From: Candidatus Magasanikbacteria bacterium RIFCSPHIGHO2_02_FULL_48_18
GTDB lineage: Bacteria; Patescibacteriota; Patescibacteriia; Magasanikbacterales; UBA922
DNA: 36,416 nucleotides
Direction of reading: 5' to 3'
NCBI GenBank assembly: GCA_001784285.1
Contig: MFQC01000008.1
Location: 49,913 to 86,328, forward strand
Numbering within the stretch: position 1 is the first letter of the stretch; each line of letters opens with the position of its first letter. The position numbers and the translations under genes are program-made. The notes under the pieces were generated by a model. That model was not told the origin of the DNA. It did no database searches and saw only the letters and a list, made by a program, of their open reading frames with translations. This document shows, in pieces, positions 5,972-36,349 of this stretch.

Positions 5972-5990
5972 ATCCCGACAAAGTCGGGAT
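5972..5990. repeat. Short palindrome ATCCCGACAAAGTCGGGAT
   Basis: Same palindrome (loop TAA) at 36331-36349; degenerate form at 18331-18349. Confidence 0.8.
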
Positions 5991-18027: not shown

Positions 18028-18297
18028 AATACTGGGTTTGCTAAGTTATCTGAGTTTACTTAGCGAACGTAGACAACCGTCAATAGATAACCGCCAATTT
18101 GACATCCAAAAACAGACGTGCTATAGTATCTCGTACAATTCACTAAATATCAAGAAGAGGTTAGGGATCTGGCCCGTTGACCCTCTACCAACCTACCCGA
18201 GCTTGTCGGGGAAGGTGGTAATTCCAGCCCATGATGGGAAAGATACGTTCTGACAGTATGTCGGAAAAACGTGGACTTCTTCCTTTTGGGCAAGGAG

Positions 18298-18325: not shown

Positions 18326-18402
18326 TCCTGATCCCGACGAAGTCGAGAGAAGAATCCCTTTCTTTTGAGAGAAATATAAGGAAGAAAGGAAATGACCACC
18401 TC

Positions 18403-29780: not shown

Positions 29781-29855
29781 GGTACGGTAGCCAAGTGGTA
29801 AGGCGGGGGTCTGCAAAACCCCTATGCGTGGGTTCAATTCCCACCCGTACCTCCA
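29781..29855 (+). tRNA. tRNA-Cys (anticodon GCA), CCA encoded
   Basis: GGTACGGTAGCCAAGTGGTAAGGCGGGGGTCTGCAAAACCCCTATGCGTGGGTTCAATTCCCACCCGTACCTCCA. Confidence 0.95.
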
Positions 29856-29861
29856 AGTAAA

Positions 29862-29906
29862 GGGTCTGCAATCCCGCCATGGCGGGACAATTCCCACCCG
29901 TACCTC
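29862..29906 (+). pseudogene. Chimeric tRNA-Cys remnant with a perfect palindrome in its middle
   Basis: GGGTCTGCAA + TCCCGCCATGGCGGGA + CAATTCCCACCCGTACCTC. Confidence 0.88.
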
Positions 29907-29937
29907 ACAAAAACAAAAATCCCCTGGAAAGGGGATT
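29905..29937 (-). terminator. Terminator of efp
   Basis: Minus strand AATCCCC-ttcca-GGGGATTTTTGTTTTTG. Confidence 0.65.
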
Positions 29938-36330: not shown

Positions 36331-36349
36331 ATCCCGACTAAGTCGGGAT
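36331..36349. repeat. Short palindrome ATCCCGACTAAGTCGGGAT
   Basis: Same family as 5972-5990. Confidence 0.8.

Follow-up and report, generated by a model that had tools for sequence, protein, structure and literature searches.

A chimeric copy of tRNA-Cys in a Magasanikbacteria genome is probably the right-hand junction of a decayed mobile GIY-YIG cassette of a kind that inserts into tRNA genes, here devoid of its open reading frame (ORF). The window that we analysed, a stretch of 36,416 nucleotides (C8:49913-86328) of a 1.1-Mb genome in 12 contigs that is 99% complete, holds two ORF-less members of this cassette family, one at tRNA-Cys and one at tRNA-Arg(cct). Cassettes that split tRNA genes are widespread in Patescibacteria and, as far as we could find, undescribed; a literature search, with preprints and most subscription journals outside its scope, returned no description of a tRNA-splitting GIY-YIG cassette in CPR/Patescibacteria.

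The tRNA-Cys chimera and its palindrome

The chimera described in an earlier note on this DNA is real: 10 nt of tRNA-Cys, a 16-nt palindrome and 19 nt of tRNA-Cys occupy positions 29862-29906 (Table 1), set off from the intact gene by the 6-nt spacer AGTAAA. Comparison with the intact tRNA-Cys also bore out the exchange that had been described, with the palindrome standing exactly in place of AACCCCTATGCGTGGGTT, and the right piece matched the window with a BLAST E value of 7.7e-6. Neither a GIY-YIG ORF nor a 5' partial copy was found at this locus, which we tie to the cassette family through its architecture and its relatives in the same genome. An assembly artefact is a very unlikely source of the chimera, because many independent genomes share the architecture. 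When 58 relatives were searched with the locus DNA as the query, the chimera itself had no match; the tRNA-Cys locus of another genome (G033) is built alike around a palindrome of its own, CCCCGCCCTTCGCGAAGGGCGGGG. For an empty-site comparison of the window's own Cys chimera, the downstream flank is too short. An intrinsic terminator was considered and rejected: no T-run follows the palindrome, and the terminator-like sites lie 3' of the chimera, on the opposite strand.

Table 1 Features of the Cys and Arg loci, in window coordinates
Feature	Position	Strand	Remark
tRNA-Arg 3'-side partial match, tRNA positions 37-52 (15/16, weak)	22399..22414	-	
Intact tRNA-Arg(cct)	22431..22503	-	Differs from adjacent 5' partial
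Half-palindrome CCTGCCCGCCATGG, adjoining the tRNA-Arg 5' partial	22509..22522	-	
Displaced tRNA-Arg 5' part GCCCCTGTAGTTCAATGGATA	22523..22543	-	
Half-palindrome CCTGCCCGCCATGG, second copy	22543..22556	-	
D-loop fragment CAATGGATA, second and shorter, from the same partial copy	22557..22565	-	
Further hairpin CCAGCCCCGGGCTGG	22566..22580	-	Resembles CCAGCC..GGCTGG hairpins in the D loops of relatives' partial copies
Intact tRNA-Cys(gca), CCA encoded	29781..29855	+	ARAGORN, Rfam
Displaced left piece GGGTCTGCAA, 5' strand of the tRNA-Cys anticodon arm and the loop as far as position 36	29862..29871	+	
Perfect palindrome TCCCGCCATGGCGGGA, 16 nt, in place of tRNA positions 37-54	29872..29887	+	36|55 class
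Displaced right piece CAATTCCCACCCGTACCTC, identical to tRNA-Cys 55-73, without CCA	29888..29906	+	

The palindrome had been taken for a short element that captured, or sits inside, a duplicated tRNA 3' half. Its place inside a duplicated 3' part stands, but its status as a repeated mobile sequence does not: the Cys palindrome has one copy in the genome, and the unit that inserts is larger and includes a complete tRNA. The 16-mer TCCCGCCATGGCGGGA occurs once in the window, with 0.11 occurrences expected even when 3 mismatches are allowed, and its 14-nt core is single-copy in the 1.1-Mb genome. The CCATGGCGGG core is indeed found beside tRNA-Arg too, in 2 copies (22509 and 22543). It has 4 matches in the window against 0.05 expected and 8 genome-wide; the 4 outside the Cys and Arg loci have no tRNA in the flanks that we read and look like chance matches within coding sequence.

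These copy numbers bear on a REP/RAYT-type palindromic repeat that would lie near tRNAs by chance. The motif CCCGN4-10CGGG, which is found 176 times in the genome against 85 for its reversed form, speaks for such a repeat. We nevertheless consider it exceedingly improbable, as the Cys palindrome is single-copy and its place in the tRNA is constant and recurs in different genera. With 0 matches to the Y1 transposase family PF01797 in the genome at E<=0.001 and no dispersed copies of the palindrome, a RAYT/REP origin was rejected. Elsewhere in the window, away from tRNAs, a hairpin ATCCCGAC..GTCGGGAT with the same type of stem as the tRNA-arm palindromes occurs three times (5972-5990, 18331-18349 and 36331-36349), and a SAM riboswitch at 18144-18249 scores above the Rfam gathering threshold.

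Marked tRNA loci in the same genome

At the Arg locus, the palindromes sit on partial tRNA copies, a point absent from the earlier note. The displaced 5' part GCCCCTGTAGTTCAATGGATA has exact counterparts in two other genomes: the beginning of the intact tRNA-Arg(cct) in G079 (L118) and a displaced 5' half in G026 (L117). Because the 21 nt of the window's displaced half are the same as in G079 whereas the window's intact tRNA-Arg differs, the locus fits tRNA replacement; we read the intact tRNA-Arg(cct) as the replacement, since it is unlike the 5' partial next to it.

We screened the 45 tRNA loci of the genome for adjoining partial copies and found them at Ile(gat), Pro(ggg), Asp, Trp, Cys and Arg(cct), in each case with a segment replaced or interrupted by a GC-rich hairpin. 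In the Ile, Pro and Asp copies, the anticodon arm is replaced by CCCCGCTGAATAGCGGGG, CCCCGATCGCAATCGGGG and TCCCGATGTCAATCGGGA, respectively; the Trp copy has CCCGGCCTTTAGGCCGGG at the position of the Cys palindrome and another hairpin in its D loop. The palindrome sequence varies from locus to locus; what stays constant is the hairpin and where it sits in the tRNA. Behind the tRNA-Ile lies a 92-amino-acid ORF with a GIY-YIG domain, followed by a 3' partial copy of tRNA-Ile that has the same hairpin. At Trp, the stretch separating the partial copy from the intact tRNA contains a truncated GIY-YIG start, MFYVYILLSKKDKKF*, which was read by eye and had no HMM match.

This genome also has a GIY-YIG ORF inside its own 16S rRNA gene (L084; G000:C11 ~49100), bounded by inverted CCACACCTTTTATGC / GCATAAAAGGTGTGG and placed on the nuclease tree near the cassettes of Trp, Glu and Lys tRNAs. 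On contig C3, near 281.9 kb (L083, around 1290), very GC-rich sequence changes abruptly to AT-rich, and the contig is possibly chimeric.

Cassettes at tRNA genes across Patescibacteria

The association of such palindromes with tRNA copies, which the earlier note had proposed to look for in related genomes, is present there. A pattern built from the window junction and its Trp relatives, GTCTSCAAYCC..GGRCRATTC, matched at 13 sites, spread over 9 of the 381 genomes searched in the class; the reversed pattern had 0 matches in any genome listed in the same search. An intact tRNA-Trp or tRNA-Cys lies no more than 660 bp away at 11 of the 13 loci, and a GIY-YIG ORF adjoins six distinct sites (L252, L253, L254, L255/L262, L258 and L260). 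Two of these (L253 and L254) have the order ORF, tRNA-Trp and palindrome-bearing 3' partial, the last 28-49 nt beyond the tRNA. Minus the ORF and the left half, this is the layout of the window's Cys locus.

Searching 86 genomes of the order with the Ile ORF yielded 30 loci, 28 of which have an intact tRNA gene, and 31 of 40 lower-ranked matches were no more than 300 bp from a tRNA. Not every GIY-YIG match is near a tRNA. Among distinct GIY-YIG ORFs, 67 of 82 lie no more than 320 bp from a tRNA gene, a proximity expected by chance for about 3% on the basis of tRNA density, and all 67 of these are on the strand of their tRNA. Across the phylum, a GIY-YIG match was present in 213 of 287 sampled genomes, and 22 of the 30 loci that we fetched were at a tRNA. 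Hosts include Magasanikbacteria, Levybacteria, Shapirobacteria, Gottesmanbacteria, one Paceibacterota genome and one record labelled Omnitrophota; nearly all of the genomes compared are draft metagenome-assembled genomes. The tRNAs concerned are those for Ala, Arg, Asn, Asp, Gln, Glu, Gly, Ile, Leu, Lys, Met, Phe, Pro, Ser, Thr, Trp, Tyr and Val, and a GIY-YIG fragment adjoins tRNA-Cys only at a contig edge (G016, L053). The Omnitrophota-labelled record is a 344-kb contig with a related GIY-YIG gene beside tRNA-Ala(cgc) (L149), and reflects either transfer beyond Patescibacteria or a binning error.

What inserts is a whole tRNA, in most cases together with a GIY-YIG gene, bordered on one side or on both by tRNA halves that bear a palindrome. 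In full loci (L106, L122, L133 and L151), the 5' half is followed by the tRNA and the ORF, in either order, and then by the 3' half. In the 5' half, the sequence extends from the start of the tRNA across the palindrome and into the T arm; in the 3' half, it extends from the D loop across the palindrome as far as the end of the tRNA. Where both junctions are readable (L010, L106, L122, L133, L146 and L151), each side has the same palindrome; the palindromes differ between loci. A search in which hairpins were no condition of selection gave 52 tRNA-flanked inserts, and 41 of these fold better than shuffled sequences (p<=0.02). The inserts fall at fixed tRNA positions. In the 27|43-45 class the anticodon arm is replaced, most rows are hairpins, and many of the 27|45 palindromes have a common outer stem, (C/T)CCCG..CGGG(A/G). 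The 36|54-55 class comprises Trp and Cys. Insertions into loops (12|13, 17|18, 22|23 and 35|36) cost the tRNA no base or hardly any and often have twin hairpins. An intron remnant was rejected, as no group I or group II intron family in Rfam matched any of 19 loci at E<=1.

Several loci depart from this plan in their details. Three (L114, L126 and L129) have a common block, GGCGGTGGCTAGGCCAAAATT..hairpin..GAGCCGAGGC, between the intact tRNA and the 3' partial, in which Rfam recognises no family. Two others (L049 and L057) have antisense tRNA-like fragments and a common hairpin block, GGGGATGGTAAGGGG..CCCCTTACA, between the intact tRNA-Cys and the 3' partial. In L203 (G024), a unit of 5' partial tRNA-Trp, palindrome and GIY-YIG ORF is duplicated in tandem, with identical copies, before the intact tRNA-Trp. 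In L103 (450-845), the GIY-YIG frame stays open across the hairpins and the 3' half of tRNA-Met, so that its tail is encoded by tRNA sequence. ARAGORN reports as tRNA-Stop(tta) a full-length copy of tRNA-Ile whose anticodon arm contains the palindrome (L146, 449-524); palindrome-marked tRNA copies may appear as suppressor tRNAs in the output of annotation pipelines.

Insertion into tRNA genes and replacement of the native tRNA

Comparison with empty sites places the cassettes inside tRNA genes. At tRNA-Val, G036 has 295 bp more than G022, a member of the same genus, and tRNA positions 44-76 are duplicated. The two genomes align up to the end of tRNA-Val and then again from tRNA position 44, directly after the palindrome; the insert holds the palindrome and a GIY-YIG ORF, together with a short piece of the D arm. 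At tRNA-Cys, the native upstream flank continues into the 5' partial (G018 compared with G035), and the 3' partial continues into the native downstream flank (G013 compared with G028). Judged by these three comparisons, the cassette has been inserted into a tRNA gene. As a partner for the tRNA-Ile locus of G035, the tRNA-Ile of G018 gave no strong match.

In two loci, the displaced halves and the intact tRNA are not the same gene. The outermost tRNA-Ile halves of G035, GGGCGTG../..CACGCCC, pair with each other, and the inner tRNA-Ile has GGGCGAC..GTCGCCC. The displaced 5' half of tRNA-Arg(cct) in G026 has 32 nt in perfect agreement with the intact gene of G079, a congener, and the intact tRNA-Arg of G026 differs from its own displaced half. 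In both loci, the displaced halves are the native tRNA and the intact gene is a different one. Most inner tRNAs match their own displaced halves, and a foreign origin is therefore visible in few loci only.

In a different account, replication slippage would have duplicated tRNA fragments locally in tandem, palindromes would then have been inserted into the non-functional copies or perfected there by template switching, and GIY-YIG genes that tolerate tRNA surroundings would have hitch-hiked. The copies do lie near their parent tRNA, many palindromes are in loops, and the ORF in the 16S gene indicates that other RNA genes are occupied too. We regard this account as improbable, as native flanks continue into the halves and an intact tRNA lies inside the insert, the intact tRNAs of G035 and G026 are unlike the halves, the palindromes are identical at both junctions yet different between loci, and the strand linkage is without exception.

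Scars of tRNA-integrating islands or phages, made at the att sites of tyrosine recombinases, would also leave tRNA fragments. In the classic att layout, the tRNA 3' part is duplicated downstream and the tRNA is restored, which resembles what is seen here. Such an origin is highly improbable all the same: the insert in G036 has room for the GIY-YIG ORF only (the remaining inserts were inspected by eye), displaced 5' halves are as frequent as displaced 3' halves, and the anticodon arm is replaced by a palindrome in both halves. Two cassette ORFs had no relative in the phage collection, and an IMG/VR scan with alignment A2 found none either; phage carriage was rejected on these grounds.

The GIY-YIG protein and a proposed mechanism

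The cassette protein, 80-90 amino acids long, consists of a bare GIY-YIG domain and has no obvious DNA-binding domain. The ORFs of relatives and the genome's own Ile ORF score above the PF01541 cut-off, and the Tyr, Arg and Glu columns of the GIY-YIG alignment are invariant. The closest solved structures are UPF0213 proteins and the structure-specific SLX1. Because the domain is bare and these are its nearest structures, sequence-specific homing is offered here as a hypothesis only. On the nuclease tree, built from 88 columns and with many open forks, the tRNA target changes 43 times against 62 when shuffled (0 of 200 shuffles as low), and on the same tree host families f1 and f8 are interleaved.

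Our explanation runs as follows. A full cassette consists of a complete tRNA and a single-domain GIY-YIG gene of ~85 amino acids on the strand of the tRNA, in free order, and its insertion splits the native tRNA, leaving the 5' and 3' parts on either side of the cassette. Each half has tRNA sequence on both sides of an identical palindrome, which either replaces the target site (the anticodon arm, or positions 37-54 in Cys/Trp) or occupies the D or anticodon loop, often as a twin, and the inner tRNA would let the cell survive. We infer that a tRNA gene without the mark is cut by the nuclease, or by an enzyme akin to it, and that the cassette is copied in through recombination repair of the break. 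The palindrome would eliminate the cut site and so confer immunity. It would also favour retention by making loss of the cassette costly, as recombination between the two halves would yield a tRNA with a hairpin for its anticodon arm. Recombination between a half and the inner tRNA would trim the cassette to a one-sided form, such as the Cys locus of the window. Cassettes with these properties may well be mobile by homing.

The agent could also be a structure-specific, SLX1-like nuclease that acts on hairpins or cruciforms of tRNA genes and palindromes, in which case the palindromes would be recognised ends, on the model of hairpin-dependent transposition, and not immunity marks. This variant changes the mechanism and leaves the anatomy as it is. 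We consider it unlikely, though less so than slippage: UPF0213 and SLX1 are the nearest solved relatives, a separate DNA-binding domain is lacking, palindromes stand at both junctions and many 27|45 palindromes have the outer stem in common, but the sequence, length and number (single or twin) of the palindromes differ by site class, and the clustering of target tRNAs on the nuclease tree suggests target specificity.

More broadly, these elements may represent a new class, tRNA-swap cassettes, which split a tRNA gene, supply a complete and sometimes different tRNA, have a palindrome at both junctions, persist through tRNA-based addiction, are common across Patescibacteria and can exchange the tRNA genes of their hosts. 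We hold the case for this wider proposal to be evenly balanced. If the cassette explanation is right, the abundant small GIY-YIG genes of Patescibacteria, matched in most of the genomes sampled, are parasites of tRNA genes, and many of the odd tRNA fragments and GC-rich palindromes in these bacteria are cassette footprints. Mobile DNA would then be replacing essential tRNA genes in streamlined bacteria, and a selfish element would be breaking an essential RNA gene that cannot be spliced and solving the problem with a replacement copy. Under this reading, tRNA replacement by cassettes is directly testable.

Comparison with known systems

Group I introns of bacterial tRNA genes are mobile insertions as well, often with a homing endonuclease. 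They restore their target by splicing, whereas the cassettes supply a complete tRNA. UPF0213 and SLX1 resemble the cassette protein in structure, but they are housekeeping or uncharacterised proteins and not parts of cassettes embedded in tRNA genes.

Insertion sequences in CPR rRNA genes encode GIY-YIG proteins and match no intron class (PMC11270868). They share with the cassettes the bacterial group and the location of GIY-YIG ORFs in stable-RNA genes, as does the ORF in the 16S gene described above, but their targets are rRNA genes only, and neither tRNA nor palindromes or hairpins turned up in a text search of that paper.

SegB of T-even phages is a free-standing GIY-YIG homing endonuclease that cleaves in tRNA genes; segB and tRNA genes are widely co-localised in phages, and the gene moves by intronless homing (PMC2988022; PMC13096335). 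As in the cassettes, a GIY-YIG gene lies at tRNA genes. In the accessible portions of these accounts, however, segB stands between intact phage tRNA genes, with no split halves, junction palindromes or replacement tRNA described, and its setting is the phage and not, as for the cassettes, the bacterial chromosome.

In Allomyces, an insertion in atp6 combines a nuclease ORF with a foreign replacement for the C-terminal part, and the function of the gene survives (PMC4019555). The likeness lies in the rescue of the target's function by a supplied replacement part. The atp6 target is a mitochondrial protein gene, and the source calls the insertion an intron with a nuclease, whereas the cassettes occupy tRNA genes, supply a complete tRNA and have palindromes at their junctions. 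The combination of split tRNA halves, palindromes and a supplied tRNA is undescribed for SegB, Allomyces atp6 and the CPR rRNA insertions, as far as the accessible parts of these sources go. The closest precedents of the cassette are phage SegB, for a GIY-YIG gene at tRNA genes, and the Allomyces atp6 insertion, for a target repaired by a supplied part.
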